A stretch of 60,067 nt of DNA, from the NCBI GenBank assembly GCA_035528575.1, contig DATKYK010000028.1, positions 1-60,067 of the forward strand. Direction: 5' to 3'. A model generated the notes under the pieces. That model searched no databases. It worked only from the letters and a program-made list of their open reading frames with translations, and was not told where the DNA came from. Source of the stretch: Dehalococcoidia bacterium. Lineage in GTDB: Bacteria; Chloroflexota; Dehalococcoidia; E44-bin15. Positions 5,587-59,576 of the stretch are shown piece by piece; positions within the stretch are counted from its first letter, which is position 1, and the number at the start of each line of letters is the position of its first letter. The translations under genes were made by a program, and so were the position numbers.

Positions 5587-6368
5587 ACGATATTCCTTTA
5601 ACTTCAATCGTGGAGAATCTGAGGACAAAGTTCATCGGCCAAAACATCCTTTATTATCCGGTCACCCCCTCCACTATGGATGCGGCGAAGCAGGCAATAA
5701 GGGAAGTTGCAGCGGAGGGAACCGTTGTCATCGCCGACCACCAGACTGCAGGCCGGGGGCGACTGGGCCGTGAGTGGCTTTCACCCCCAGATAGTAACAT
5801 CCTGCTATCTATCGTTCTCTATCCAATGCCGGAACAGCTCCCCCGACTCACCATAGCCGCTTGCCTGGCGGTGGCACAGAGCATCGAGAAGGTCACCGGT
5901 CTTGAGACCACCATCAAGTGGCCCAACGATGTCCTCATCGCAGGAAAAAAGGTGAGTGGTATTTTAATCGAGAGCGATGCTCACGGGGACAGGGTTAACT
6001 ACGCCATTGTGGGCATCGCCTTAAATGTCAATCTTGACCCCACCACCATCCCTGAGATTTCAGAAACGGCCACCAGCCTCAAGGAGATGCTGGGCAGGAA
6101 AGTGTCCCGCAGGGAGATGCTGATAGCACTACTGGATGAATTTGAAACGCTATATAATGCGCTACGCCGCGGCGAGCCAATCGATCGTGAGTGGCGCCAG
6201 CGCCTAGAAACCTTGGGGCAAAGGGTTGCGGTGCGCTGCGGTGATGAGGTTCAGGAGGGCGTTGCCGAGGGGGTGGACGAAGATGGCAACCTGCTGCTCA
6301 GGCACTCCGATGGCAGCCTGATGACCATTGCCGCCGGTGATGTCACAATCAAATCATCGAATTATTGA
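5577..6368 (+). CDS. birA: Biotin-[acetyl-CoA-carboxylase] ligase, monofunctional
   Basis: This enzyme activates biotin with ATP and attaches it to the biotin carrier domain of carboxylases. The biotinyl-AMP loop GRGRLGREW, the KWPNDV motif and KVSGILIE are all present, followed by a C-terminal SH3-like domain. At 263 residues it lacks the N-terminal HTH that bifunctional BirA repressors carry, so it should not regulate transcription. ATG 5577 overlaps the end of the radical SAM gene; GTG 5583 is an alternative start. Its 3' end overlaps the convergent aldehyde oxidoreductase gene by 7 bases. Confidence 0.93.
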   Translation: MAVNDIPLTSIVENLRTKFIGQNILYYPVTPSTMDAAKQAIREVAAEGTVVIADHQTAGRGRLGREWLSPPDSNILLSIVLYPMPEQLPRLTIAACLAVAQSIEKVTGLETTIKWPNDVLIAGKKVSGILIESDAHGDRVNYAIVGIALNVNLDPTTIPEISETATSLKEMLGRKVSRREMLIALLDEFETLYNALRRGEPIDREWRQRLETLGQRVAVRCGDEVQEGVAEGVDEDGNLLLRHSDGSLMTIAAGDVTIKSSNY

Positions 6369-8293: not shown

Positions 8294-8360
8294 CTTCTCC
8301 TCCAATCAATTCCTATAGAGGATACCGTTGATGCCCTATATCGCTATTCTTGTAACTCAC

Positions 8361-47373: not shown

Positions 47374-48597
47374 ATGGATTTCGAATTTACAGAAGAGGAA
47401 AAGATGTTCAGGGAGAGCCTGCGAGATCTTCTGGAGCGGGAGTTTGCCCCAATAGTTAATGAAATGGATCGGAAGGGTCCCCTTACCAGAGAAGAGGCAA
47501 TTGAGGTGATGCAAAAGTTTAAAAAGATAGGGATTGGCCTTGACCCGGAGGGCTCCAGAGAGTTAATCGGCAATCCTATGCTATTCGCCATATTTGCCGA
47601 GGAAGTTGGTGGAGTATGGCCAAGCATACTGCCACTTTTTGGCATGGGGGCTATTCCGGCGATGTTTATCCCGGTGGCCTCAGAGGCTGTCAGAAGCAGG
47701 TTGTTGCCAAGGCTCGAGAGCGGTGAGTTCATCGGGTGCTTCGCCGAAACGGAGCCGGAGGCAGGGTGTGATACATCAAACCTCAAGACCACAGCCGTTT
47801 TAGACGGAGATCACTACATTATCAATGGAAGTAAAACCTGGATAAGCAATGCAACGATTGCCGATACAGCGTTTGTTGCTGCAATAGATGCAACAACAGG
47901 TAAAGAGACTTTCTTTATAGTAGAAAAGGAGATATCTCCGTGGGAGACAAATGAGTTGCATAAGATAGGTTGGAGAGCCTCACCCACTGGCGAGATGTTT
48001 TTCGAAGATTGCAGGGTTCCAAAAGAGAATGAGATGGGAGCCATAATGGGTGAAGCCTTTAAGCTTGGCCCCAAAATGAAGAAGGTCTTGCCGGTATCGG
48101 ACGGGTTTATGAAACTGTTAAGTACGATGTCTCCAGTTACGGCGTTACTCACCACGCCAAGAGCTGGAATGGGATTGGTATCAGTCGGAATAGCTCAGGC
48201 AGCTCTGGATGCTTCAATAAACTATGCGAGGGAAAGGAAGCAATTCGGCAAGCCTATTGGTAAGTTCCAGTTGATTCAAGAGATGCTTTATGAGATGAGC
48301 GTCTTAACCGAGACAGCCAGACTCCTCGGATATAAAGCTATTGATGCAATCGTCAAGGGGGATCCAGACGCCAGGAGACTCTCATCGATGGCTAAGGTGT
48401 ATGGAGGTGAGGCTGCCGTTAAGGTGACATATAATGCAATACAGATTCATGGGGGCATGGGGCTTTCGGATGAGATGCCACTAGAGCGATACTTCAGAGA
48501 TGCCAGAATAATGACGATTCCTGATGGCACCAGCGAGATGATGAAGTTGATAACCGGCTATACGCTGCTGGGTAAAGGATTCTCAGCATATGCCTGA
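47374..48597 (+). CDS. Acyl-CoA dehydrogenase
   Basis: A 407-residue flavoprotein that introduces the alpha-beta double bond in acyl-CoA. It has ETEPEAGCDTSN, NGSKTWISNA (FAD and substrate contacts), RKQFGKPIGKFQLIQ and QIHGGMGLSDEMPLERYFRDAR. Where many members carry a catalytic Glu in YEGT, this one reads PDGTSE, a variant in several ACAD subfamilies, so the catalytic base may be elsewhere or be Asp. AAGGAGG precedes the ATG. A hairpin follows the gene. Confidence 0.92.
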   Translation: MDFEFTEEEKMFRESLRDLLEREFAPIVNEMDRKGPLTREEAIEVMQKFKKIGIGLDPEGSRELIGNPMLFAIFAEEVGGVWPSILPLFGMGAIPAMFIPVASEAVRSRLLPRLESGEFIGCFAETEPEAGCDTSNLKTTAVLDGDHYIINGSKTWISNATIADTAFVAAIDATTGKETFFIVEKEISPWETNELHKIGWRASPTGEMFFEDCRVPKENEMGAIMGEAFKLGPKMKKVLPVSDGFMKLLSTMSPVTALLTTPRAGMGLVSVGIAQAALDASINYARERKQFGKPIGKFQLIQEMLYEMSVLTETARLLGYKAIDAIVKGDPDARRLSSMAKVYGGEAAVKVTYNAIQIHGGMGLSDEMPLERYFRDARIMTIPDGTSEMMKLITGYTLLGKGFSAYA

Positions 48598-48654
48598 GCA
48601 CCATACCCTAGCTAAGTGGCTGGTAACTTCAAATATATGAGACTGCTGAAAAAG

Positions 48655-48682
48655 AGCTGCCCCGACGTATCGGGGCAGCTTT
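48655..48682 (+). terminator. Hairpin after the acyl-CoA dehydrogenase gene
   Basis: AGCTGCCCCGA (48655-48665) and TCGGGGCAGCT (48670-48680) form a perfect 11-base-pair stem with a 4-base loop. Only TTT follows, so termination may be weak. The core CCCCGA/TCGGGG resembles the mini-palindromes elsewhere in the window. Confidence 0.6.
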
Positions 48683-48715
48683 AAAAAGTCCCCCAAGATT
48701 GGGGGATTAGGGGGG
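48676..48715 (+). repeat. GC-rich hairpin repeat, copy 1
   Basis: CAGCT, one variable base, then TAAAAAGTCCCCCAAGATTG and GGGGATTAGGGGG. An identical copy except for that one base lies at 48923-48962. Each can fold through CCCCC and GGGGG. Confidence 0.85.
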
Positions 48716-48732
48716 TTCATAAAGAATTCTAA

Positions 48733-48870
48733 ATGTCATTGCGAGCGCAGCGTGGCAATCCCAGTGTTGCAATCCCAACGCACCCCCCTGTCCTTGCGAC
48801 CCTTTCCTGTCACTGCGTCCCTTTCCCGTCATTCCCGCCTCCCTTCTGTCATTCCCACGCAGGCGGGAAT
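48733..48870 (+). repeat. Dispersed intergenic palindromic repeats
   Basis: This non-coding stretch contains TGTCATTGCGAGCGCAGCGT and GGCAATCCC (48733-48762), and CATTCCCACGCAGGCGGGAA (48850-48869). These are typical REP-like intergenic repeats seen in many anaerobe genomes (general knowledge). Nothing in it looks coding. Confidence 0.6.
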
Positions 48871-48872
48871 CC

Positions 48873-48925
48873 AAGGGAGTCCAGAGGGATTTCCCTCTGG
48901 TGGGGGTCTGGGGGTGTCCCCCAGC
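48873..48925 (+). repeat. Dispersed GC-rich repeat, copy 2
   Basis: GTCCAGAGGG, a short spacer, CCCTCTGG, a G-run, then TGGGGGTGTCCCCC. The same sequence order occurs inverted at 11021-11077. It lies between the two copies of the 40-base hairpin repeat. Confidence 0.6.
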
Positions 48926-48962
48926 TGTAAAAAGTCCCCCAAGATTGGGGGATTAGGGGGTT
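48923..48962 (+). repeat. GC-rich hairpin repeat, copy 2
   Basis: A copy of 48676-48715 with one base difference. The two copies bracket about 210 bases of other repeats, so the whole intergenic region 48655-48962 is a repeat nest. Confidence 0.85.
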
Positions 48963-49047
48963 GATTGAGACTATTTCGGCAATCTCTAATTGTTAAACAA
49001 ATCGTTATCTGAAATAGCAAGTATTTAGAGAAAAAGGAGATTCTTCT

Positions 49048-50157
49048 GTGATTGAGAAAGGGAGAGCAGCAGTTTATTGTGGCCTGGGCCATCCCTTTGA
49101 GATCAAGGAATACCCCGTGCCCGAACCCGAGCCAGGGGCTATCCTTATCAAGGTGTCAAGAGCCAATATATGTGGCTCAGACCTTCATATGTGGCGTGGT
49201 GACATCGACCTCGCTGCCCTGGGAGCACCGCTACCGGCAATCATCGGCCACGAGATGACAGGCACCGTAGCCAAGCTGGGTGAGAGCGTCACCACCGACT
49301 CGGCGGGCCAGCCCCTGGCAGTGGGGGATCGGGTAGTTCACCGCTATTTCTACCCCTGCGGGCGTTGCCGGGCGTGCCTGAAGGGAAACGACGGCGCGTG
49401 CCTTATTGCCCCCCTCACTTATATTAGCCCCTGCGAGCAGCCCCCTCACTTCCTGGGCGTTTATGCCGAGTACTTCTACCTGCGCCCCAATCACACCGTT
49501 TTTAAAGTGCCTGACGACCTCACCGACGAGATGGTGGCTCCAGCAAACTGCGCCCTATCCCAGGTTATCTATGGCCTGGGGAAAGTGGGGTTCGGCTTCG
49601 GGGAGACCATCGTCATTCAGGGGGCGGGAGGCCTGGGCATATATGCAACCGCTGTGGCCAGGGACATGGGTGCGGAGAAGATCATCGTCATCGATGGCAT
49701 CGATGAGCGCTTGAGGTTGGCAAAGGCCTTCGGCGCCGATGAGCTGATCGACTTGAGGGAGCTTAAGACCCCAATGGAACGGTCGCTAAGGGTAAAGGAG
49801 CTAACCGGAGGTTGGGGAGCGGATGTCGTCGCCGAACTCGTGGGCTTCCCCCAGGTTATCCCTGAGGGCATAGACATGTTAGGTAACGGCGGTCGCTACC
49901 TGGAGATGGGCAACGTCACCTTTGGAATGACCTATGAGGCTGACCCCTCCAAGCTGGTGACAGGAAACAAGAGCATAGTGGGTGTCATGCTATATGGGCC
50001 CTATGCCTTGAAGCAGGCCCTCGACTTCCTCAGCCGAACCAAGGATAAATACCCCTTCGACAAGATACTCTCTCGTTCCTATCCTCTGGAGGAGATCAAC
50101 AGGGCCTTTGAGGAGCAGGATAAGGGACTGGTCACCAGGGCTACCATCATCCCCTAG
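49048..50157 (+). CDS. Zinc-binding medium-chain alcohol dehydrogenase
   Basis: A 369-residue MDR-family dehydrogenase. It has the catalytic zinc site (ANICGSDLHMW, GHEMTGTV), the structural-zinc Cys cluster in CGRCRACLKGNDGAC, and the NAD(P) Rossmann motif VIQGAGGLGIYA. It is of the threonine/sorbitol-dehydrogenase type, with substrate unknown. The start is GTG 49048, behind AAAAAGGAGA. It stands alone between the repeat nest and a CoA-transferase relic. Confidence 0.9.
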   Translation: MIEKGRAAVYCGLGHPFEIKEYPVPEPEPGAILIKVSRANICGSDLHMWRGDIDLAALGAPLPAIIGHEMTGTVAKLGESVTTDSAGQPLAVGDRVVHRYFYPCGRCRACLKGNDGACLIAPLTYISPCEQPPHFLGVYAEYFYLRPNHTVFKVPDDLTDEMVAPANCALSQVIYGLGKVGFGFGETIVIQGAGGLGIYATAVARDMGAEKIIVIDGIDERLRLAKAFGADELIDLRELKTPMERSLRVKELTGGWGADVVAELVGFPQVIPEGIDMLGNGGRYLEMGNVTFGMTYEADPSKLVTGNKSIVGVMLYGPYALKQALDFLSRTKDKYPFDKILSRSYPLEEINRAFEEQDKGLVTRATIIP

Positions 50158-50623: not shown

Positions 50624-50652
50624 TTGACAATTTATCAGCATTTTGTTATTAT
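50624..50652 (+). promoter_or_regulatory. Promoter of the iron-sulfur cluster
   Basis: TTGACA (50624-50629) and TATTAT (50647-50652) are 17 bases apart; a second TATAAT occurs at 50676-50681. It stands 40-75 bases before the DUF134 gene, the first of the dense cluster. Confidence 0.65.
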
Positions 50653-50698
50653 AATAATGGACATAGGTTCATTACTATAATACGGAGTGGAGGATTTT

Positions 50699-51169
50699 AT
50701 GCCTAGACCACCCAAATGGCGTCGAGTCGGTTCCATACCGGAAGTAACTTTCTTCAAGCCAGCGGGAATTCCAATGATACATTTGGAGGAGATACGCCTT
50801 TCAATAGAGGAAGCAGAAGCGATACGTCTGAAGGATTTGGAAGGCCTTGAGCAAGAAGAGTGTGCTCAGAAGATGCTGATATCACGCCCTACCTTTCATA
50901 GGGTGCTCGGATCCGCCAGGAAGAAGCTGGCAGACGCTCTGCTCAATGGCAAAGCTATTAGGATCGAGGGTGGTAATTTCGAGATGGCGATGCGACGCTT
51001 CAAATGCGGTAATGATGGCAAGGAATGGGATGTCCCCTTTGAGAACATAGTGTCCGGACAAATTCAGGTTTGTCCCAGTTGTGATAACCCGAATGTATAT
51101 CCTGTCCATGCCCCGGGCTTCGGCTTTGCCGGCAGGAGAGGCCGGCGTCGGATGGGAGAGATGTTGTAG
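50699..51169 (+). CDS. DUF134 HTH-type putative regulator
   Basis: A 156-residue member of the DUF134 (COG1342) family. It begins with the characteristic MPRPPKWRRV, followed by EAEAIRLKDLEGLEQEECAQ and a sigma-region-4-like HTH (MLISRPTFHRVLGSARKKLADAL). The C-terminal part carries CxnxG and CPSC pairs that may bind zinc or an iron-sulfur cluster. I infer a transcriptional regulator of the downstream cluster, perhaps metal- or cluster-responsive. ATG 50699 has GGAGTGGAGG upstream. Confidence 0.85.
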   Translation: MPRPPKWRRVGSIPEVTFFKPAGIPMIHLEEIRLSIEEAEAIRLKDLEGLEQEECAQKMLISRPTFHRVLGSARKKLADALLNGKAIRIEGGNFEMAMRRFKCGNDGKEWDVPFENIVSGQIQVCPSCDNPNVYPVHAPGFGFAGRRGRRRMGEML

Positions 51170-51173
51170 CGAC

Positions 51174-51620
51174 ATGTTTCATGTAGATTTAGATAAGTGC
51201 AATGGATGCGGCGCCTGCGTCGATGTTTGCTCCCAGGTGGCAATAAGCATCAGGGACGGCAAGGCCGCAATCGATCATATATGCTGTATTGAATGCGGCA
51301 TGTGCTTCTCGGTATGTGCTGCGGGTGCCATTCAGGAGGCGGTACCGCAGGCCGCTGGAATGTATCGAGGATTAGATACTAACCTAGAAGAGAGGGAGGT
51401 GAGCAATATGCTTGCGAGAGGATGGTTTGGCAGAAGCAGAAGCTTTGGCATGGGCAGAGGCCTAGGCATGGGCAGAGGCCTAGGCATGGGCAGAGGCTTT
51501 GGCATGGGCAGAGGCTTGGGCATGGGTAGAGGCCTAGGCATGGGCAGAGGCCTAGGCATGGGCAGAGGCTTTGGTATGGGTAGAGGCTTTGGCATGGGCA
51601 GAGGCTTGGGCAGGTATTAA
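51174..51620 (+). CDS. 2[4Fe-4S] ferredoxin with a (GMGRG[L/F])9 tail
   Basis: The 148-residue protein has a bacterial ferredoxin domain (residues 1-60) with both cluster motifs: CNGCGACVDVC and CCIECGMCFSVC. A linker of about 30 residues leads to nine tandem copies of the hexapeptide GMGRG(L/F) and ends GRY. The repeat is glycine-, methionine- and arginine-rich, so it could bind a metal (through Met sulfur), RNA or a partner. The start is ATG 51174, four bases after the DUF134 stop; the ribosome site is weak, which suggests coupling. Confidence 0.85.
   Translation: MFHVDLDKCNGCGACVDVCSQVAISIRDGKAAIDHICCIECGMCFSVCAAGAIQEAVPQAAGMYRGLDTNLEEREVSNMLARGWFGRSRSFGMGRGLGMGRGLGMGRGFGMGRGLGMGRGLGMGRGLGMGRGFGMGRGFGMGRGLGRY
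51447..51608 (+). repeat. Nine tandem 18-base repeats inside the ferredoxin gene
   Basis: Nine in-frame copies of GGCATGGGCAGAGGC plus a Leu or Phe codon. Differences among copies are few and mostly silent or Leu/Phe, indicating recent slippage or gene conversion. The copy number probably varies among strains. Confidence 0.95.
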
Positions 51621-51700
51621 GCTGTCCGCTAAGAAGAGGCCTGGAAAATAACCGGGAGATTAGTTAAAGAGTTCGTAGAATTCAAGGAGGGAGGTAAGTG

Positions 51701-52015
51701 ATGCCTGGATTTGACGGAACAGGACCACGAGGAATGGGCCCAATGACCGGAGGGGGTAGAGGTTTGTGCAGCTCCTGGGGAGGAGGGGCATCTTTCAGGC
51801 GCGGGATTGTCCAGCCTTACCCTAGAGTTCCCTATGCTCCATATTGGGGATTTGGGTCTATGCCCTACAGGTCAACTGCGCCGTGGGCGGCACCATTCGA
51901 GCCCCAGATAACCCGTGAGCAGGAGCTTGACTTCTTGAAGAAAAAGGCTCAGGCAACAAGGGAGCAACTGGAGCAGATCGAGTCCAGAATAAAAGGGCTC
52001 ACCGCCGAAGAGTAA
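51701..52015 (+). CDS. DUF5320-type protein
   Basis: A 104-residue protein with the N-terminal MPGFDGTGPRGMGPMTGGGR signature of DUF5320, a Pro/Tyr/Gly-rich middle and a C-terminal coiled coil TREQELDFLKKKAQATREQL. The function is unknown; the family accompanies NifX-like and Mrp/MinD genes. The same C-terminal module recurs in the next two proteins. A GGAGGGAGG ribosome site precedes ATG 51701. Confidence 0.8.
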   Translation: MPGFDGTGPRGMGPMTGGGRGLCSSWGGGASFRRGIVQPYPRVPYAPYWGFGSMPYRSTAPWAAPFEPQITREQELDFLKKKAQATREQLEQIESRIKGLTAEE

Positions 52016-52037
52016 CCTCGTAAAGAGGAGGTGTTTT

Positions 52038-52361
52038 ATGCCAAACGGCTTTGGTTATAGAGGGGGGTGGGGTTTTGGATTCAGGGGAAGCTCTCCTCCC
52101 TGGCCCTACATTGGCCTGGGTAGGGGCGGACTCCCCAGGTGCGGGTACTTCCCTGCTGGAACACCGGTGGCACCCGGTTACGCCCCCTACTATGGAGCAG
52201 CTTGGGATATGCCCTATGCGGCCACACAAGGGACTACACCCTTCGCCCCGCAGATGACCCGTGAGCAGGAGCTTGACTTCCTGAGGAATGAGGCGGAGGC
52301 GGTGAGTGAGAACCTGGGGCAGATCGAAGCCAGGATAAGCGAGCTGGAAGCAGAGGGATAA
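52038..52361 (+). CDS. DUF5320-like Gly/Pro/Tyr-rich protein
   Basis: A 107-residue paralogue-like protein. It has a glycine-aromatic N-terminus (GFGYRGGWGFGFRG), a Pro/Tyr-rich centre and the same C-terminal coiled coil as its neighbour (MTREQELDFLRNEAEAVSEN). The N-terminal GTGP signature is absent. AAAGAGGAGG lies upstream of the ATG. It probably partners the preceding protein. Confidence 0.75.
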   Translation: MPNGFGYRGGWGFGFRGSSPPWPYIGLGRGGLPRCGYFPAGTPVAPGYAPYYGAAWDMPYAATQGTTPFAPQMTREQELDFLRNEAEAVSENLGQIEARISELEAEG

Positions 52362-52377
52362 TAAAGGGAGGTGATTC

Positions 52378-52956
52378 ATGAAAATTGCGGTTTCAGCGAC
52401 AGGACCCGGCCTCGACGCCGAGGTTGACCCGAGATTCGGCCGTTGCCAGTACCTTATCGCTGCCGACACGGATACGATGGAGTTCGAGGCCACCGAGAAT
52501 ACCAATATCATGGCCGGTGGTGGCGCTGGGATCTCCACCGCCCAGACGGTAGCTAATATGGGCGTTCAGGTGGTGCTCACCGGTAATTGTGGCCCCAATG
52601 CCTATCAAACCCTCTCCGCAGCCGGGATCCAGGTGATAACCGGTGTTAGCGGTACTGTGAGACAGGCCATCGAGGGCTACAAAGAGGGAAGGTTTCAGGC
52701 GTTATCCGCGCCCAGTGTAGACGCGCATTTCGGAATGGGTGGCGGAATGGGCGGTAGCGGACGTGGCATGGGAATGGGAGGCGGTGGTGGACGTGGCATG
52801 GGAATGGGCATGGGTATGGCTCCAGCAGAGCCAATCCCCCAGCCGCAGAGCCCCGAGCAGGAGATGGAGATACTCAAGGGCCAGACCGAGATGCTGAACC
52901 AGCAGCTGGAAGCGATCCAGCAACGCATCGCGGAGCTGGATAAAAAGGGTAGCTAA
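52378..52956 (+). CDS. NifX/NifB-domain protein with Gly-Met linker and coiled-coil tail
   Basis: A 192-residue three-part protein. Residues 1-105 form a dinitrogenase iron-molybdenum cofactor-type domain (MKIAVSATGPGLDAEVDPRF, GGGAGISTAQ, LTGNCGPNAYQTL). Residues 118-148 are a GMGGG/GRGMGMG-rich linker. Residues 155-192 are a coiled coil like those of the DUF5320 neighbours. Domains of this family bind Fe-S or heterometal clusters (NifX, NafY, orange protein). I infer a cluster carrier. Confidence 0.85.
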   Translation: MKIAVSATGPGLDAEVDPRFGRCQYLIAADTDTMEFEATENTNIMAGGGAGISTAQTVANMGVQVVLTGNCGPNAYQTLSAAGIQVITGVSGTVRQAIEGYKEGRFQALSAPSVDAHFGMGGGMGGSGRGMGMGGGGGRGMGMGMGMAPAEPIPQPQSPEQEMEILKGQTEMLNQQLEAIQQRIAELDKKGS

Positions 52957-52967
52957 GGAGGCAGATT

Positions 52968-53171
52968 GTGCCATTCTACGAATACCACTGTACCCAATGT
53001 GACGAGAGGTTTGAGGTTCGCCAGGCCATGGGCGAGGATGGCTCCAAGCTGAACTGTCCCAGGTGTAAGGCGGGAAATCCTCAAAGGCTCATCTCGACCT
53101 TTTCCAGTCCTGGTGCCAGTGGCTCGGCTGGTATGGGTGATAGCTGCAGCACGTTCAGCGGCAGCACCTGA
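52968..53171 (+). CDS. FmdB-type zinc-ribbon protein
   Basis: A 67-residue protein with the FmdB signature MPFYEYHCTQCDERFEV and a second pair CPRC. The serine/glycine-rich tail has no known role. Small FmdB ribbons are annotated as putative regulatory proteins. The start is GTG 52968 with TAAGGAGG upstream. Confidence 0.8.
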   Translation: MPFYEYHCTQCDERFEVRQAMGEDGSKLNCPRCKAGNPQRLISTFSSPGASGSAGMGDSCSTFSGST

Positions 53172-53182
53172 GGGACAGGTAG

Positions 53183-53344
53183 ATGACCTCGGAGAGAGTC
53201 AAAGAGCTGGAAGAGCAAATAGCAGACCTTAAGCATCGCTGGCCTCCCCACTCGGTTCCGCCACAGATGCTTGAGCGGCTCGATGAACTGGAGGAAGCCC
53301 TTAGGGAAGCCAAGAAGGCTGAGGGCCAAGGACAGTTGCGTTAA
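53183..53344 (+). CDS. Small coiled-coil protein, unknown
   Basis: A 53-residue, highly charged protein: two helices (RVKELEEQIADLKHRW and MLERLDELEEALREAKKAE) separated by PPHSVPPQ. It fits neatly between its neighbours, with GGGACAGGTAG upstream of the ATG. The regular heptads and the helix-PP-helix pattern favour a real gene. It may be an adaptor for the cluster proteins. Confidence 0.6.
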   Translation: MTSERVKELEEQIADLKHRWPPHSVPPQMLERLDELEEALREAKKAEGQGQLR

Positions 53345-53366
53345 TAGAAATACTGGAGGTGTTATT

Positions 53367-53588
53367 ATGCCTGGGGGAGATGGAACAGGGCCGCCCGGTG
53401 GGGGTGGCCCGGGAACAGGAAGAGGCTTAGGTAGAGGCAGGGGTAGGATGGGGGGTGCACGAGCTGGCGCTGGCCCAGGAGGGAATTGTGTGTGCCCCAG
53501 TTGCGGTGCTACGACCCAACACCAAGTAGGGATACCCTGCTACAGCATAAGCTGCCCCAAGTGTGGCACCAATATGGTGAGGGGCTAG
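53367..53588 (+). CDS. Glycine-rich double-CxxC zinc-ribbon protein
   Basis: A 73-residue protein. The N-terminus MPGGDGTGPPGGGGPGTGRG shares the GTGP signature of the DUF5320 protein at 51701, followed by a GRGRGRMGG stretch and a C-terminal ribbon with CVCPSCG and CPKCG. GGAGGTGTTATT precedes the ATG. It is followed without a gap by the first MinD ATPase gene. Confidence 0.75.
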   Translation: MPGGDGTGPPGGGGPGTGRGLGRGRGRMGGARAGAGPGGNCVCPSCGATTQHQVGIPCYSISCPKCGTNMVRG

Positions 53589-54449
53589 TTGATAATCTCC
53601 GTCGCCAGTGGTAAAGGGGGTACCGGCAAGACCCTAATCGCCACCAGCCTCGCACTGTCCCTGGAGAGTGACCTGCAGTTCCTCGACTGCGATGTTGAGG
53701 AGCCTAACGCCCATATATTCCTTAAGCCTGTTATAGATTGCCAGGAGTCAGTAAAAATCCCCGTACCTAATGTTGATGAGACCACATGCACATTCTGTGG
53801 CAAATGCGCTGAGGTTTGCGCCTTTAACGCTATCGCTGTTTTACCCAAGAAGGTGCTGGTGTTTCCAGAACTGTGCCATGGGTGTGGTGCCTGCTACTAC
53901 CTGTGCCCAGAAGGTGCTATCAATGAGATAGGAAGGCCTGTTGGCATAGTGGAAACGGGTCATTCGGGACAGATTGAGTTCATCCACGGTAAGCTAAGCG
54001 TTGGCGAGGCGATGGCGCCGCCTATTATCAGGAAAGTAAAGGCTCATATCGACCGGCAGAAGACCGTGATCATAGATGTCCCTCCGGGAACTTCGTGTCC
54101 AGTGGTAGAGGCAGTACGTGGGAGCGATTTCTGCCTGCTGGTAACCGAGCCCACGCCCTTTGGCCTTAATGACTTGGCCTTAGCGGTTGAGGTCATGAGG
54201 AAGCTAAGTATACCCTGTGGAATAGTAATTAATCGCGAAGGGGTGGGAGACCGTAAGCTGGAGGATTACTGTAGCGAGGAGGGATTGCCCGTTCTGCTCC
54301 ATATCCCGCTGGATATGGAGATCGCACGCCTTTATTCTCGAGGCGTTCCACTCGTAAAAGGTATGCCACAGTGGCAGCCGGCTTTCCAAGCTCTTTTCAA
54401 GAATATCTCTGAAATAGTATCGAAGCAATGTGCCAGGAGTAATGTCTGA
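53589..54449 (+). CDS. MinD/Mrp-superfamily ATPase with inserted ferredoxin domain (first copy)
   Basis: A 286-residue P-loop ATPase: VASGKGGTGKTLIATSLA (deviant Walker A), DCDVEEPNAH and PPGTSCPVVEAV. Between residues 60 and 115 it contains a 2[4Fe-4S] ferredoxin insertion (CTFCGKCAEVC, CHGCGACYYLC). Such proteins, for example Orp3/Orp4 of the orange-protein complex, are thought to drive metal-cluster assembly. The start is TTG 53589, immediately after the previous stop, with GAGGGG upstream. It overlaps the next gene by one base. Confidence 0.9.
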   Translation: MIISVASGKGGTGKTLIATSLALSLESDLQFLDCDVEEPNAHIFLKPVIDCQESVKIPVPNVDETTCTFCGKCAEVCAFNAIAVLPKKVLVFPELCHGCGACYYLCPEGAINEIGRPVGIVETGHSGQIEFIHGKLSVGEAMAPPIIRKVKAHIDRQKTVIIDVPPGTSCPVVEAVRGSDFCLLVTEPTPFGLNDLALAVEVMRKLSIPCGIVINREGVGDRKLEDYCSEEGLPVLLHIPLDMEIARLYSRGVPLVKGMPQWQPAFQALFKNISEIVSKQCARSNV

Positions 54450-54667
54450 TGAATAGTATCAGTAGGGCAGGCCAAGAGTGGAGAGAAATTGGTATTAGTA
54501 GTGGGGATCATCTTAACAGAATGGTACAAATGTATGAAGAGCTAGGATTCGAAGTGAGCCTCGAGGAGGTTGAGAAGGTAGACCAGCAGTGTCTTGAATG
54601 CTATCAAAACAGAGGGGAAGTCGCTTATAGGCTTTATGTTAAATCAGAAGATAGGTTACACAGATGA
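54449..54667 (+). CDS. Small Cys-containing protein, unknown
   Basis: A 72-residue protein with MVQMYEELGFEVSLEEVE and a CLECYQNRGEVAYRLYV segment. It has a CxxC. I recognise no family. Tight one-base and four-base overlaps with the ATPase genes on both sides show it is translated with them and may be an adaptor between the two ATPases. Confidence 0.65.
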   Translation: MNSISRAGQEWREIGISSGDHLNRMVQMYEELGFEVSLEEVEKVDQQCLECYQNRGEVAYRLYVKSEDRLHR

Positions 54668-55524
54668 AGGAACTTGTTGTATTGAGCGGTAAAGGGGGAA
54701 CGGGGAAGACTACTATAGTTGCCTCCTTTGCCGCTTTAACAAAAGACAAGGTTCTAGTAGATTGCGATGTGGATGCTGCTGATCTTCATCTACTACTTCA
54801 GCCAGATGTTAAAAAAAGTGAGGAGTTTTGGAGTGGGAAGACTGCGGTCATTGATAAAAATTTCTGCACTGGCTGTGGCGTCTGTGAGCAGGTGTGCCGG
54901 TTTGATGCCATAGAGAATTTCAAGGTTGATCACATCCCTTGCGAGGGATGTGGCTTCTGTTTTCACGTCTGCCCCGAGAATACTATTAGGATGAAGGATA
55001 ACCTCGCCGGACACTGGTTTATCTCCGAAACCAAATACGGCCCACTGGTCCATGCCAGGCTGGGGATCGCCCAGGATAATTCGGGAAAGCTGGTGGCGCT
55101 TGTCAGGCAGCAGGCCAAGGTCCTTGCACAGGAACAGGGCTTTAATTATATTCTCAGTGACGGACCGCCCGGCATCGGCTGTCCTGTCATCTCCTCGCTA
55201 TCAGGAACCAACCTCGCGCTCCTCATAACTGAGCCCACTCTCTCGGGGATGCATGACCTTGAGCGGGTTCTCGGTGTATGCGGCCATTTTGGTGTTCCTG
55301 CCGTGGTTTGTATAAATAAATATGATATCAATGAGGAAAACGCAACCGGTATTGAGGAATTCTGCAGAGATATGGGTGTGGAGGTAATCTCGAAACTTCC
55401 GTTTGATAATGTCGTTACCGAGGCATTAGTTAAGGGATTACCAGTGGTGGAATACTCTACCAATGGGATTGCCCGAGAAGTAGAGTTGCTGTGGCAGAAC
55501 ATTTTTAGAGTGCTGGAAAATTAG
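54664..55524 (+). CDS. MinD/Mrp-superfamily ATPase with inserted ferredoxin domain (second copy)
   Basis: A paralogue of the preceding ATPase, also 286 residues. It has VLSGKGGTGKTTIVASFA, DCDVDAADLHLLL, ferredoxin motifs CTGCGVCEQVC and CEGCGFCFHVC, and DGPPGIGCPVISSL. Pairs of such ATPases occur in ORP-type operons and may form a heterodimer. It overlaps the small gene by 4 bases. Confidence 0.9.
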   Translation: MKELVVLSGKGGTGKTTIVASFAALTKDKVLVDCDVDAADLHLLLQPDVKKSEEFWSGKTAVIDKNFCTGCGVCEQVCRFDAIENFKVDHIPCEGCGFCFHVCPENTIRMKDNLAGHWFISETKYGPLVHARLGIAQDNSGKLVALVRQQAKVLAQEQGFNYILSDGPPGIGCPVISSLSGTNLALLITEPTLSGMHDLERVLGVCGHFGVPAVVCINKYDINEENATGIEEFCRDMGVEVISKLPFDNVVTEALVKGLPVVEYSTNGIAREVELLWQNIFRVLEN

Positions 55525-55575
55525 ATATAAATACCAAATATGAGTCTATAAAGATGCTTATAAGGAGGTTCGATT

Positions 55576-55914
55576 ATGAGATATGCTCTACCCATGAGCA
55601 ATGGCAAGGTATCCTCGCATTTTGGCCACTGTGAGCAATTCGCCTTGATCGATGTGGATGAAGCTGCTCGAAAGATCGTGAACAAAGAACTGGTTATTCC
55701 CCCAGAACACCAGCCAGGTGTGTTCCCTTCATGGCTGGCAGAAGAAGGAGTTAATATTGTCATAGCCGGTGGCATGGGCCCCAGGGCTCAGAACCTGTTC
55801 AGTGAGAACCGAATCGAGGTCGTTGTCGGGGCTGTGGGAGATGACCCGGAGGAGATTGTTCTAGCCCACCTTTACGGCACGTTGGCAACAGGCGATAACG
55901 TCTGCGATCATTAA
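55576..55914 (+). CDS. NifX/NifB-domain protein
   Basis: A 112-residue single-domain member of the dinitrogenase iron-molybdenum cofactor family: MRYALPMSNGKVSSHFGHCE, the VIAGGMGPRAQNLF segment and the C-terminus VCDH. Orange-protein and NafY relatives carry heterometallic clusters; here the role is inferred. ATAAGGAGG precedes the ATG. It is the second of three such proteins in the cluster. Confidence 0.9.
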   Translation: MRYALPMSNGKVSSHFGHCEQFALIDVDEAARKIVNKELVIPPEHQPGVFPSWLAEEGVNIVIAGGMGPRAQNLFSENRIEVVVGAVGDDPEEIVLAHLYGTLATGDNVCDH

Positions 55915-55982
55915 CATTGGTATTGGGCAACTAGGTATTAAGAAACTTTATTTGGACCACTCTAGAAATAAGGAGGACAATC

Positions 55983-56219
55983 ATGCCGATTTATGACTAT
56001 AGTTGTCGTGAATGTGGCAGGGTATCAGAGATGCTCGTGAGAACCTCTGAGGGTGAAGTAAGATGTCCCCATTGTGGCGGAGCCGATATGGAGCAGCTCG
56101 TTTCCGCCTCATACCGCATAAAAATGAATAAAGCGGAGCCGGGCACGACATGCTGCGGAAAAGAAGAGCGCTGTGAAACACCGCCGTGCTCCAGCGGTGA
56201 AGTTTGCAGGAGGAGGTGA
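55983..56219 (+). CDS. FmdB-type zinc-ribbon protein, Cys-rich tail
   Basis: A 78-residue FmdB ribbon (MPIYDYSCRECGRVSEML, CPHCGG) followed by a Cys-rich tail (TTCCGKEERCETPPCSSGEV). The extra cysteines, six or more beyond the ribbon, may bind a second metal. AAGGAGG precedes the ATG. It is the second FmdB gene in this cluster. Confidence 0.8.
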   Translation: MPIYDYSCRECGRVSEMLVRTSEGEVRCPHCGGADMEQLVSASYRIKMNKAEPGTTCCGKEERCETPPCSSGEVCRRR

Positions 56220-56220
56220 A

Positions 56221-56511
56221 ATGGACCCAATAGAAATTAAGCCATCATATTCCAGTATAGAAGTATCAGGAAAGTGCATTAAGTGCCTTACTGAGCAAAA
56301 CCTTGGAAGTTGCCTCAAGGAACTTTTAAGGGGGGATATAGAGAACAAGGAAATCGGTGAGAAATATGAGGCTCTTGTAGCTTTCCTTAAATCACCCGTC
56401 TCAAGAAAGCTAAGCGATGTATGCGAAAGGTATCTTTCAGAGGGGAAGGAGGTAACGGCCAAAATATATTTCTGGAAGGGTAAACCAAAATACAAGATAA
56501 CATTATCTTAG
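56221..56511 (+). CDS. Uncharacterised cluster protein
   Basis: A 96-residue protein with CIKCLTEQNLGSC near the N-terminus, then helical and beta segments ending KPKYKITLS. No known family. The ATG at 56221 has GGAGGAGGTGAA at ideal distance, which rejects an earlier in-frame ATG at 56173 inside the FmdB gene. It lies between an FmdB and a NifX-like gene. Confidence 0.65.
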   Translation: MDPIEIKPSYSSIEVSGKCIKCLTEQNLGSCLKELLRGDIENKEIGEKYEALVAFLKSPVSRKLSDVCERYLSEGKEVTAKIYFWKGKPKYKITLS

Positions 56512-56521
56512 CCATATTTAA

Positions 56522-56932
56522 ATGGAAAACGGTATGAAGATTGCCATTGCATCAGACGATGAAATGAACGTTAGCCAGCACTTTGGTCGGGCACCTTACT
56601 ATGTAGTTTTCTCCGTCGATTCTGGAAAGATCACCGCTAAAGAGACCCGGTCTAAGGCTGGCCATCAGACCTTTGCTGCCCATGTGCCAGCGAAGCTAGC
56701 GGAGGGTGAGCGACATGGCTACGATGCCGGATCTCAATCCAGGCATGAGAGCATGGCGGAGGCAATCCGCGATTGCCAGGTATTGCTCGCCGGGGGCATG
56801 GGCTGGGGAGCTTATGAGGCTATACAGGGCTATAGCATTGAGACCATTGCCACTGATGTAGGAAATATCGACGAAGCGGTGGAGCTGTATGTTGCCGGCA
56901 AGCTCGACAACCTGATGGACCGTTTACACTAA
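56522..56932 (+). CDS. NifX/NifB-domain protein
   Basis: A 136-residue member of the dinitrogenase iron-molybdenum cofactor family: MKIAIASDDEMNVSQHFGRA, GGMGWGAYEAI and IDEAVELYVAGKL. It has an insertion (KLAEGERHGYDAGSQSRHES) not seen in the other two. The family start is probably the Met at 56534. It is the third NifX-like paralogue, directly upstream of the Mrp ATPase. Confidence 0.88.
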   Translation: MENGMKIAIASDDEMNVSQHFGRAPYYVVFSVDSGKITAKETRSKAGHQTFAAHVPAKLAEGERHGYDAGSQSRHESMAEAIRDCQVLLAGGMGWGAYEAIQGYSIETIATDVGNIDEAVELYVAGKLDNLMDRLH

Positions 56933-56958
56933 AGTAATCTATGTAAAGGAGGATATGA

Positions 56959-57963
56959 ATGCAGCAAGAGGAAGCAGTCAAAGAGGCCTTAAACCAGGTA
57001 CTAATTCCCGGGATAGGACGAAGCTTAACCGGATTGAATATGATCCGGGCAATTAAGGTTAACAGTGATAGGCTGAAGGTAACCTTGGCGTCAACCGGCC
57101 TCAATACTAACACTCAGGAACACGTTCGAGATAAGGCAAGTAGTGCTCTCAAAGACTTACCTAAGATCAAGGGAATCGCTATAGAATTCGAAGAGGCAAA
57201 ACCGCAGGACCTGAACCAAATAGATCACGTTATCGCAGTAATGAGTGGCAAGGGCGGCGTAGGCAAGTCGCTGGTTACCGGCCTTCTGGCTATTGGCCTG
57301 AACCGCCAGGGCTATGAGGTAGGGGTGTTGGATGCCGATATCACCGGCCCCAGCATCCCTAAGATGTTTGGCATCACCGCCCGTCCCGGTGGCAGCGATA
57401 CAGGCATCCTGCCGGTGCTATCCAAGTCAGGTATTGAGATCATGTCCATTAACCTCCTCCTACCCCATGAGGACGATGCCGTTATCTGGCGGGGGCCCCT
57501 TATCGGCAAAGCGATCCAGCAGTTCTGGGAAGAGGTAGTGTGGGGGAAACTAGACTATCTTCTAGTCGATCTCCCTCCCGGCACCGCCGATGTCCCCCTC
57601 ACGGTGATGCAGACATTACCCCTCTCTGGGGTAGTCATCGTCTTTACCCCGCAGGACCTAACGGCAATGGTGGTCAGAAAGGCGATGCATATGGCGCAGA
57701 CGATGGATATACCCATTTTGGGGGTGGTAGAGAACATGAGCTATCTTGTTTCCCCAGACACCGGGAAAAGGATCGATATCTTTGGCAATACCAAGGGGGA
57801 GGAGATGGCACTGGCAGCAGGGGCACCACTTATAGAGCAACTGCCCCTGGACCCTGAGCTGGCCAGGCTTTGTGACGAGGGGAATATCGAGCATTACAAC
57901 TCTAAAGGTGTAAATAACCTTGCCCAGGCTTTGCTTCAATCTACACCAATCAAGACAGTATGA
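56959..57963 (+). CDS. mrp: Mrp/NBP35-family Fe-S carrier ATPase
   Basis: A 334-residue protein with an N-terminal MIP18/DUF59-like domain (1-80) and an Mrp ATPase domain: VMSGKGGVGKSLVTGLLA, DADITGPSIPKMFG, WRGPLIGKAIQQF, LPPGTADVPLTVMQ and VENMSYLVSPDTGK. Mrp proteins bind and hand on [4Fe-4S] clusters. At the usual CPxC site this protein reads SPDT, so both cysteines that bridge a cluster between subunits are missing. TAAAGGAGG lies upstream. Confidence 0.92.
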   Translation: MQQEEAVKEALNQVLIPGIGRSLTGLNMIRAIKVNSDRLKVTLASTGLNTNTQEHVRDKASSALKDLPKIKGIAIEFEEAKPQDLNQIDHVIAVMSGKGGVGKSLVTGLLAIGLNRQGYEVGVLDADITGPSIPKMFGITARPGGSDTGILPVLSKSGIEIMSINLLLPHEDDAVIWRGPLIGKAIQQFWEEVVWGKLDYLLVDLPPGTADVPLTVMQTLPLSGVVIVFTPQDLTAMVVRKAMHMAQTMDIPILGVVENMSYLVSPDTGKRIDIFGNTKGEEMALAAGAPLIEQLPLDPELARLCDEGNIEHYNSKGVNNLAQALLQSTPIKTV

Positions 57964-57988
57964 AAGGGTCTCAAATCAGGGGCTATGG

Positions 57989-58441
57989 ATGGATTCTGAA
58001 TTCGAAGTGATGGAAGAGAACATCGCGGATAAGATGCGAAGCATTTACTCGGACACGGTCATCGATTATGCCATGAATCCGAGAAACGTGGGGAGTATAC
58101 CCAATGCCGATGGTTTTGCCTGCGTAACCGGCCCCTGTGGAGATACTATGGAGATATGGCTCAGGGTTAAAGAGGACCGAATAAGGTATGCCACTTTCTG
58201 GACCGATGGCTGCGGGACCTCCATCGCCTGCGGCAGCATGACTACAGAACTGGTCAAAGGGAAGAGCATCGGCGAGGCTCTAGGGATTACCCAAAAGGAC
58301 ATCCTCAGTAGCCTGGGCGGGTTACCGGAGGAAAGCCAGCACTGCGCCCTGCTGGCATCAAACACCCTCAAGGCAGTTCTCAGGGACTATCTGGCTCTCA
58401 AGAATGAACCGTGGAAAAGGGCCTACCGCAACAATGTATGA
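57989..58441 (+). CDS. NifU/IscU-like iron-sulfur scaffold
   Basis: A 150-residue U-type scaffold on which Fe-S clusters are built. The three ligand cysteines are placed as in IscU: TGPCGDTMEIWLRV, DGCGTSIACGSMTTEL and HCALLASNTLK. DxAMNPRNVG is the family's opening motif. No cysteine desulfurase gene is in the window. ATG 57989 (with another ATG at 57985 out of frame) follows ATCAGGGGC. It closes the run of cluster genes. Confidence 0.9.
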   Translation: MDSEFEVMEENIADKMRSIYSDTVIDYAMNPRNVGSIPNADGFACVTGPCGDTMEIWLRVKEDRIRYATFWTDGCGTSIACGSMTTELVKGKSIGEALGITQKDILSSLGGLPEESQHCALLASNTLKAVLRDYLALKNEPWKRAYRNNV

Positions 58442-58468
58442 TCCGAGACAAAGCAGGATCGCATTAGA

Positions 58469-58571
58469 GTGGCTAACTTAAAGGAGATAGACAGAGCTCC
58501 GAGACTGCTGGGCCTGGGAAATGCAGCAACGCTTAAGGATATCAAGCGTGCCTATAGACTGAGGATTAGGC
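58469..58571 (+). pseudogene. Truncated J-domain-like fragment
   Basis: From GTG 58469 the frame reads RAPRLLGLGNAATLKDIKRA, which resembles helices I-II of a DnaJ J-domain. The similarity ends where the HPD motif should begin, at the start of the radical SAM gene. It has no HPD motif and is probably a remnant, or a short helical peptide. Confidence 0.35.
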
Positions 58572-59339
58572 TTGATAAACTCCATTATCTACGGCCCCGT
58601 AGCCTCATGGCGACTGGGAAGGTCACTGGGTATCGACCTATTATCAACGGATGGCAAGACCTGCTCCTTCGATTGCATATATTGCCAACTGGGCAAGACC
58701 CTTTACCCCCTGGCGGAGCGAAGAGAGTTTGTGTCCCTCGATCGACTCGTTAACCAACTTGAGGCGCTTGGGGAAATAGAGGCTGACTTCGTCACATTCT
58801 CCGGAGTGGGAGAGCCCACCCTGGCCAGCAACCTCGCTCAAGCCATAGAGATAGCTAAATCCGTCCTACATCTGCCGGTGGCAGTGCTGACAAACTCCGC
58901 ACTCATTCCCAAGTATGACGTGCGCCTTGACCTCACCGGGGCGGACGTGGTGGTAGCTAAAGTAGATGCCCCTGAAGAGGAGTTCTTCCGCAGGGTGAAC
59001 AGACCTTACGGAGGCCATTCCATCGACGAGATAATTCAGGGCATCAAATTATTCAGGGAGAATTACCAAGGGAAGCTCGCTATCCAGATGATGTTCATCG
59101 AGGCAAATAGGCACTACGCGAGAGAAATGGCGGAAATCGCGATGGGCCTCTCACCCGATGAGGTTCAACTCAACACACCGCTGCGCCCCTGTGCGGTGAA
59201 ACCACTGAGGCAGTATGCGATGGCTGCTGTTAAAGAAGAATTTGAGGGACTAAATGTGGTTCAGGTTTATGAGGCACCGTTACGCGAAGTGACACCCCTG
59301 AATTCTGCTGAGACAATTCGAAGAAGGCCTGAATCTTAA
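58572..59339 (+). CDS. Radical SAM protein
   Basis: A 255-residue radical SAM enzyme with CSFDCIYCQLG (CxxxCxxC) for the [4Fe-4S] cluster, IYGPVASWRLGRSLGIDLL just before it, and TFSGVGEPTL and VLTNSAL as SAM-binding elements. The conserved family is uncharacterised. The start TTG 58572 puts the conserved IYGPV segment near the N-terminus. It follows the NifU-like gene by 130 bases and may modify a cluster partner; that is inference. Confidence 0.85.
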   Translation: MINSIIYGPVASWRLGRSLGIDLLSTDGKTCSFDCIYCQLGKTLYPLAERREFVSLDRLVNQLEALGEIEADFVTFSGVGEPTLASNLAQAIEIAKSVLHLPVAVLTNSALIPKYDVRLDLTGADVVVAKVDAPEEEFFRRVNRPYGGHSIDEIIQGIKLFRENYQGKLAIQMMFIEANRHYAREMAEIAMGLSPDEVQLNTPLRPCAVKPLRQYAMAAVKEEFEGLNVVQVYEAPLREVTPLNSAETIRRRPES

Positions 59340-59539: not shown

Positions 59540-59576
59540 GCCCTGACCCTATCTAAATATGGGGTTGGGGCTTTTT
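59540..59576 (+). terminator. Terminator-like hairpin in the leader (possible attenuator)
   Basis: GCCCTGACCC (59540-59549) pairs with GGGTTGGGGC (59562-59571) in a 10-base-pair stem with two wobble pairs, followed by TTTTT. It lies between the promoter and the ribosome site (AAAGGAGGGG, 59581-59590) of the next gene. An upstream 20-codon frame (59516-59578) stops exactly in the T-run. Confidence 0.6.

Follow-up and report, generated by a model that had tools for sequence, protein, structure and literature searches.

A run of 18 genes on the forward (+) strand of a contig from a Dehalococcoidia bacterium may encode a store of iron sulfide and the machinery that fills and empties it, an arrangement in which the principle of IssA, the Pyrococcus furiosus protein that stores iron and sulfur as thioferrate (PMC5524996), is split over several genes. 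The run occupies positions 50699-59339 of contig DATKYK010000028.1 (assembly GCA_035528575.1), the whole 60,067 nucleotides of which are referred to here as the window. On the sequence evidence a probability of about 0.4 is assigned to this reading. An original prediction from the letters alone had proposed a machine that builds, moves or stores an unusual metal-sulfur cluster; this is partly supported. The machine fits the findings and the proposal is right in kind; it is narrowed here, tentatively, to storage of iron and sulfide as a protein-coated mineral that can be loaded and drawn on for Fe-S clusters, and the unusual cluster gives way to iron and sulfide as the best-supported cargo. The genes and their families, the composition of the tails, a related C-terminal helix, the gene fusions, the conserved cysteines and the linkage are directly established.

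It is an open question how anaerobes keep iron and sulfide without the oxygen-dependent chemistry of ferritin, and by what means they draw on a store of ferric sulfide. The physiological mechanism of cluster assembly was described as yet to be determined, with reduction named as one possible form of activation (PMC5524996). The operon offers concrete candidates for a coat, a reductant, an exit ATPase and a regulator, and gives a testable role to DUF5320, a family scarcely mentioned in the literature searched. The window is one contig of a 2.3-Mb genome (45 contigs, 96% complete), and the best named matches of MinD1, the first of the two MinD-type ATPases of the locus, are metagenome-assembled genomes of Dehalococcoidia and Chloroflexota.

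Tails Resembling That of IssA

The tail of IssA consists of a Pro-rich region followed by a cationic, aromatic and Gly-rich region; its 70 amino acids include 15 Gly, 14 aromatic, 11 Pro and 7 cationic residues (pI 10.7) and the sole Cys of the protein (PMC5524996). The free-standing DUF5320 proteins of the locus nearly match this composition in the portion that precedes their C-terminal helix segment: 69 amino acids of g03 contain 15 Gly, 11 aromatic, 11 Pro and 6 cationic residues with one Cys (pI 10.0), and 72 amino acids of g04 contain 16 Gly, 15 aromatic, 12 Pro and 4 cationic residues, again with one Cys (pI 9.4). Two DUF5320 proteins had been predicted. The first, g03, scores 68.5 bits against a PF17253 cut-off of 27, which NifX1 (g05) also exceeds (39.6 bits, in its C-terminal half); the second, g04, falls short at 22.4 bits, although it aligns with g03 and its homologues. 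With thresholds chosen after g03 and g04 had been seen, a 70-residue stretch of IssA-tail-like composition was found in 28 of the 55 members of the DUF5320 cluster versus 8 of 1458 other selected open reading frames (ORFs) of the related loci described below, and those eight read as tail carriers, either DUF5320-like proteins or tailed ferredoxins and NifX proteins.

Related segments occur on other products of the operon. In the ferredoxin g02, 9.8 copies of an 18-bp repeat encode a tail of 70 residues (pI 12.0), among them 30 Gly, 13 Arg/Lys and 10 Met but no acidic residue. In g08 a DUF5320-type N-terminal motif precedes a Cys ribbon, and the ribbon pattern is present in 32 of 89 loci at one copy each. 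The C-termini of g03 and g04 are related to that of NifX1, with 12/28 and 12/32 identical residues, respectively, and 0 of 1000 shuffles aligned equally well; g07 was considered as a third copy of this helix and rejected, since 115 of 1000 shuffles were equally good. The same parts are found joined in other genomes, those of L077, L033, L097 and L070 belonging to other phyla. One ORF of locus L077 combines NifX, GMGRG, a helix-like stretch and a ferredoxin, and loci L033 and L097 encode single chains in which NifX is followed by an RG linker and a Cys ribbon-like end. A ferredoxin, a DUF5320 head and an RG tail are fused in L018, a relative of the same family, as are head, RG segment and ferredoxin in L070, and in L020 a tail-less NifX1 is preceded by five free DUF5320-like ORFs. 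Gly/Arg-rich ends were also seen on 5 of 25 DUF134 proteins and on some Fur-like proteins near the loci. Several kinds of protein in the operon seem, from their sequences, to share one mineral-gripping tail, which suggests how material might enter and leave the store. Among individual cases, a DUF134 protein at L079:7921-8460 has a long Gly/Arg-rich C-terminal tail, and Fur-like genes upstream of NifX in L033, L036, L037, L039 and L105 encode short Gly/Arg/Trp-rich N-terminal heads in the style of DUF5320.

DUF5320 and NifX also tend to occur together in Chloroflexota. Among 400 Chloroflexota genomes, NifX is encoded in 22 of the 26 with DUF5320 and in 81 of the 374 without it (Fisher p 1e-10, kinship ignored), on the assumption that the two surveys, run with the same settings and returning the same handles, drew identical genomes. 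In the 20 genomes that have NifX and a DUF5320 match over its cut-off, the two genes read as at most 5 kb apart on one contig in 19, G147 being the exception. In a literature search of titles, abstracts and passages that covered few subscription journals, neither DUF5320 nor the MinD-ferredoxin pair was found connected with IssA.

The Three NifX Proteins

All three PF02579 (NifX) matches of the genome sit within the locus. A structure model of NifX1 contains a confident domain, a linker with a predicted local distance difference test score (pLDDT) of ~50 and a 33-residue helix at 159-191. By sequence its nearest solved structure is the ORP protein of Desulfovibrio gigas (5.2e-22), in agreement with the predicted resemblance to ORP-type neighborhoods, to which the shared pair of MinD-like ferredoxin proteins also contributes. 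In a tree of 164 of 170 NifX domains and five PDB rows, NifX1 and ORP belong to one 83-row clade, and NifX1 groups with ORP, TM1290 and MTH1175 at 94/94, below the starred level of support; MTH1175 is an IssA-type protein (PMC5524996). Recent duplication of the three genes was rejected, as they fall into separate supported sets (12 rows at 100/96, 18 rows at 99/95 and 8 rows at 100/99), which argues that NifX1, NifX2 and NifX3 are different tools and not copies. NifX1 would serve as the scaffold of the store, and NifX2 and NifX3 as handover proteins.

The MinD-Ferredoxin and Mrp ATPases

The structure model of MinD1 (pLDDT 96) matches ApbC, MinD, BchL, HypB and NifH at Z scores of ~20-24, led by ApbC at 23.8 (219 residues, 2.9 A), with BchL at 21.6 and nitrogenase Fe protein at up to 20.8. 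Since many P-loop ATPases score similarly, the fold does not choose a function, and a PDB sequence-profile search listed no nitrogenase Fe protein at 1e-5. The ferredoxin motifs are inserted at residues 61-111 of MinD1. Besides the eight ferredoxin cysteines, Cys170 of MinD1 (61/61 aligned) and Cys173 of MinD2 (19/19 aligned) are invariant, each seven residues past the switch-II Asp, and a strict D-x-P-P-G-x-x-C type pattern is present in 156 of 164 MinD-type ORFs. NifH from a related genome has a Cys at the same switch-II spacing; this comparison rests on spacing because hhalign aligned MinD1 with NifH persuasively around the P-loop and not beyond it (local match 7-49). In NifH the switch-II Cys helps to hold the cluster between two subunits. 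By analogy, MinD1 and MinD2 might dimerize and keep a labile Fe-S unit where the two subunits meet. The MinD proteins share with NifH, BchL and ApbC-Nbp35-type ATPases the fold and a deviant Walker A motif, and have a cysteine at the NifH spacing from the switch-II Asp, but differ from all of these in carrying an inserted ferredoxin.

The Mrp-type ATPase g16 retains the deviant Walker A motif (GKGGVGKS, pattern GKGGhGK[ST]). It contains no CxxC and a single Cys (305) overall; the CxxC motif is missing from 8 of 8 Chloroflexota Mrp ORFs seen and present in 30 of 30 others. Because CxxC is described as essential for Fe-S biogenesis by the Mrp family (PMC6345978), the name Fe-S carrier is not warranted for g16, which may have turned into a regulatory subunit.

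Recurrence of the Locus

A co-occurrence survey had been proposed with the original prediction, and much of the gene set does recur, more than chance would explain. In relatives at the level of family, order and class the gene order is broadly kept: DUF134, ferredoxin, DUF5320 copies, NifX1, FmdB, g07, g08, MinD1, g10, MinD2 and NifX2, followed by FmdB, NifX3, Mrp, NifU and radical SAM. Variation consists of losses, swaps (g04 before g03, a moved Mrp) and contigs that end early. A search with the MinD1 alignment confirmed at least 300 loci, and the counts that follow refer to the best 80 of these, which were named and many of which are cut by contig ends. A core of MinD-ferredoxin and NifX spans many bacterial and archaeal phyla: at least two MinD-type ATPases are encoded in 77 loci, and at least one NifX in 73 and at least two in 59. 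Mrp (34 loci), NifU (23) and DUF134 (20) are less frequent, alongside DUF5320-type proteins (36), the Cys ribbon (24), Gly-rich NifX tails (20) and Gly-rich ferredoxin tails (4); any tail protein is present in 51. These counts indicate that the MinD-ferredoxin pair and NifX form the core, to which tail proteins are often, though not always, added.

A sulfur or coenzyme A (CoA) branch was dropped from the explanation, as it is present in relatives' loci and not in that of the window. An NSR-like flavoprotein with PCGIPY is encoded in L018 and L022, and a CoA-binding protein in L020 and L022; the genome of the window has four distant flavoprotein homologues (best by E: 30% identity). In these relatives, the NSR/CoA-disulfide-reductase-like flavoprotein and CoA-binding-type genes lie at L018:1409-2752, L022:2624-3955 and L020:11130-11537, hinting at a CoA-thiol or polysulfide link.

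Identity of the Cargo

Iron and sulfide are the best-supported cargo on sequence grounds because of the IssA-like composition of the tails and because genes resembling Fur, DtxR and FeoB lie in the vicinity of some related loci. Near 88 anchored loci, Fur-type genes were found in 9, DtxR-type in 3, FeoB-like in 3, DUF364 ('heavy-metal chelation') in 7 and NSR-like flavoproteins in 7, the FeoB-like and NSR-like labels, like those of the J-domain proteins mentioned below, having been assigned by reading sequences. No Mo or Cu family is among the 25 commonest neighbor families of two lists, which cover 178 of 223 neighbor genes. Cultures of Methanococcus voltae on FeS2 provide a parallel: the IssA-clade NifX proteins Mvol_0689 and 0693 rise, together with radical SAM proteins Mvol_0696 and 0698, coded nearby by locus number, while FeoB and cell iron go up and a broad thioferrate-like electron paramagnetic resonance signal appears (PMC8516115, PMC9431491). 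A later Methanosarcina barkeri paper repeats the thioferrate idea, with no mention of IssA in the portion of its text available.

A Proposed Iron-Sulfide Store

From these observations we infer a cargo, an assembly, an electron flow, an ATPase dimer with its role, and a mode of regulation. NifX1 would nucleate or bind an anionic iron-sulfide polymer. The DUF5320 proteins would provide in trans the cationic-aromatic Gly/Pro tail that IssA has in cis, docking on NifX1 via the related C-terminal helix. Ferredoxin g02, kept on the particle by its Arg/Gly/Met tail, would supply electrons for the conversion of ferric sulfide to [2Fe-2S] or [4Fe-4S] units. MinD1 and MinD2, each with ferredoxin clusters and one switch-II Cys, could then act as an ATP-gated extractor in the manner of NifH or Nbp35-Cfd1 and hand these units to NifX2, NifX3 and NifU, and DUF134 would sense the store or iron status.

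A bolder version, for which the odds are considerably lower, holds that anaerobes possess a multi-protein iron-sulfide organelle held together by one shared low-complexity tail that acts as an address tag. The Gly/Arg/aromatic or Met segment would mark the NifX scaffold, the ferredoxin reductant, the Cys ribbon and the free DUF5320 coat, and in some relatives the regulators DUF134 and Fur as well, so that whatever must touch the mineral would bear the tag and a regulator could gauge the fullness of the store by adhering to the mineral. An ATP-driven exit gate would be formed by the Mrp that lacks CxxC together with the NifH-like MinD-ferredoxins.

Several findings weigh against the iron-sulfide store. 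No cationic, aromatic, Gly-rich tail is present on NifX1 itself: its linker has 18 Gly among 48 residues, a pI of 6.5 and 1 aromatic residue, and some IssA-clade members likewise carry little or no tail (PMC5524996). IssA was not part of the NifX tree, in which the link to IssA-type proteins runs through the MTH1175 branch at 94/94. With 20 of 31 Gly-rich NifX tails inside the 83-row clade of NifX1 and 11 outside, and 21 changes of the tail label on the tree (shuffled mean 28.9), such tails come and go. Among the best 80 loci, 37 are at least 15 kb long, and 10 of these lack a tail protein while 27 have one. Tails from one locus resemble each other no more than tails of different loci do, save for a weak NifX-DUF5320 likeness (p 0.017, 1 of 8 tests), and locus-specific matching of tails was set aside apart from this one weak pair. 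Two of seven relatives with MinD1 (L018 and L019) have no MinD2 in the locus, which speaks against an obligatory MinD1-MinD2 dimer. The genome encodes ferritin and SufB, and the authors of the M. voltae work considered its iron-sulfur phase likely to be distinct from P. furiosus thioferrate (PMC8516115, PMC9431491).

Alternative Explanations

The strongest competitor, rated as rather unlikely, is a plain Fe-S assembly and trafficking line that matures Fe-S enzymes, in which the Gly/Arg tails merely hold a complex together and no mineral is stored; NifU would be the scaffold, Mrp and the MinD-ferredoxins the carriers, and the NifX proteins would perform the handover. NifU and Mrp are indeed encoded, the highest Z of the MinD1 model is to ApbC, and tails are missing from the 10 long loci noted above. 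MrpORP, moreover, has Fe-S clusters bound to each of its two domains, and the P-loop one transfers a cluster to apo-targets in vitro (PMC6345978). This account has to contend, however, with an Mrp that lacks cluster ligands and with the lack of a cysteine desulfurase match among the 18 genes (Pfam, NCBIfam), while SufB exists elsewhere in the genome, and it leaves unexplained the IssA-like composition of the free-standing proteins.

Another rival, which appears improbable, is a system of the ORP type that assembles or carries a sulfide cluster with Mo-Cu or another heterometal and has a link to redox sensing or cell division. It draws on the position of NifX1, closest among solved structures to D. 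gigas ORP and in the same clade, on the MinD-like ferredoxin pair in common with the ORP complex, on Met-rich linkers that could bind Cu(I), and on an aldehyde ferredoxin oxidoreductase (AFOR) gene, of a tungsten-type family, in the window; yet there is no Mrp-NifX fusion (the MrpORP model scores 318 against a cut-off of 450 bits), and the recurring neighbors include iron regulators and, among the commonest listed, neither Mo nor Cu families. Very little weight is given to the idea that g18 makes a NifB-co-like cluster containing carbide, which the NifX proteins would ferry to some enzyme. Radical SAM, NifU and NifX occur together in the locus, a g18-type protein is found in 15 of the best 80 loci, and Mvol_0696, which rises alongside the IssA-clade proteins of M. 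voltae, is NifB-like. Against this, g18 has 255 amino acids and its 15 NCBIfam hits include no NifB model, and 65 of those 80 loci, many contig-cut, show no g18-type protein. The predicted absence of nitrogenase genes is matched at genome level, where a search for PF00148 (NifDK/EN-type) gave 0 matches at 96% completeness; a nitrogenase-linked function was rejected on this ground and for want of a NifB model in g18.

Comparison with IssA and ORP Systems

Among the closest known systems is, on the preferred reading of an iron-sulfide store, IssA/IssX (P. furiosus PF2025), which like the locus has a protein with a NifX domain (IPR003731) and a Gly-rich tail; an uncharacterised non-thermophilic IssX clade with a Gly-rich tail and high pI has also been mentioned (PMC5524996). 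The locus differs in that the tail chemistry, which in DUF5320 is near that of IssA, belongs to free-standing proteins, while a ferredoxin and a Cys ribbon bear related segments, and in that a single operon also encodes MinD-ferredoxins, Mrp, NifU, DUF134 and a radical SAM protein. In addition, the linker of NifX1 is Met-rich and neutral, and storage is a predicted function here.

With the Desulfovibrio ORP complex (Orp3, 4, 5, 8, 9), which includes a pair of MinD-like proteins with ferredoxin motifs (PMC6345978), the locus shares an ORP-type NifX domain, MinD-like ferredoxin-motif proteins and an Mrp domain. Here, in contrast, Mrp and NifX are separate, with g16 lacking both a NifX domain and CxxC; DUF5320, the tailed ferredoxin, the ribbon, NifU and DUF134 are extra; and a single run of genes in one direction follows a sigma-70-like site, whereas ORP comprises two divergent sigma-54 operons. 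The claim that the locus is much larger than ORP neighborhoods is true relative to the five-protein complex of Desulfovibrio vulgaris, but loci with many of the same families are found in other phyla.

Organization of the Locus

The gene families named in the original prediction were recovered by Pfam and NCBIfam on the + strand where it had placed them (Table 1). Gaps between the 18 genes range from -4 to 130 bp and are below 30 bp in 13 of 17 cases. The strongest promoter-like site lies immediately upstream of DUF134, with a spacer of 17 and a TG ahead of the -10 element. Numbers of promoter-like sites (14 versus 8.6 expected by chance, sd 3.4) and terminator-like sites (11 versus 8.3, sd 3.1) are within ~1.6 s.d. 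of chance. Together with the hairpin downstream of g18, the site is compatible with one transcription unit without proving it, so that transcription from one promoter, as had been claimed, is plausible. DUF134 is a probable regulator.

Table 1. Predicted features of the locus and their basis
Feature	Positions	Strand	Basis
Sigma-70-like promoter, TTGACA-17-TATTAT	50624..50652	+	11/12 matches, best of 14 sites, site count not clearly above chance
g01, DUF134 helix-turn-helix protein, extra Cys-containing Gly/Arg-rich C-terminus	50699..51169	+	PF02001 5.9e-25
g02, ferredoxin, two 4Fe-4S motifs, 18-bp repeat	51174..51620	+	Pfam, repeat analysis
g03, DUF5320: IssA-tail-like segment, then C-terminal helix-forming segment	51701..52015	+	PF17253 1.2e-18
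g04, DUF5320-like: IssA-tail-like segment, C-terminal segment as in g03	52038..52361	+	PF17253 2.9e-4
g05, NifX1: ORP/MTH1175-group NifX domain, Gly/Met-rich linker, C-terminal helix	52378..52956	+	PF02579 2e-23
g06, FmdB-type Zn ribbon	52968..53171	+	Pfam, NCBIfam
g07, small charged protein, 53 aa	53183..53344	+	no family over its cut-off
g08, DUF5320-type head, RG-rich segment, Cys ribbon (CxCPxCG..GxPC..CPxCG)	53367..53588	+	ribbon pattern search
g09, MinD1: P-loop ATPase, inserted ferredoxin (eight Cys), switch-II Cys170	53589..54449	+	Pfam, alignment, model
g10, small protein, 72 aa	54449..54667	+	in 4/88 loci, window included
g11, MinD2: second ATPase-ferredoxin, switch-II Cys173	54664..55524	+	Pfam, alignment
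g12, NifX2, HFGHC motif, separate subfamily	55576..55914	+	Pfam, tree
g13, FmdB-type Zn ribbon	55983..56219	+	Pfam
g14, small protein, 96 aa	56221..56511	+	in 3/88 loci, window included
g15, NifX3, third subfamily	56522..56932	+	Pfam, tree
g16, Mrp-type ATPase without CxxC	56959..57963	+	Pfam, NCBIfam
g17, NifU/IscU-type scaffold, start uncertain (ATG at 57989)	57989..58441	+	Pfam, NCBIfam
g18, short radical SAM protein	58572..59339	+	Pfam, NCBIfam
Terminator-like hairpin	59540..59571	+	13-pair stem with T tract

An apparent remnant of a J-domain (DnaJ-like) gene occupies 58469-58571, ahead of the radical SAM gene; a J-domain protein adjoins the radical SAM gene in L021, and another is found in L048. 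The AFOR gene of the window lies at 6362-8305 on the - strand, ~42 kb away from the locus. Mechanically called ORFs of either strand at 48583-49092 contain wording like VIPTQAGIQ and IPACVGMTE, which is familiar from dispersed non-coding repeats.

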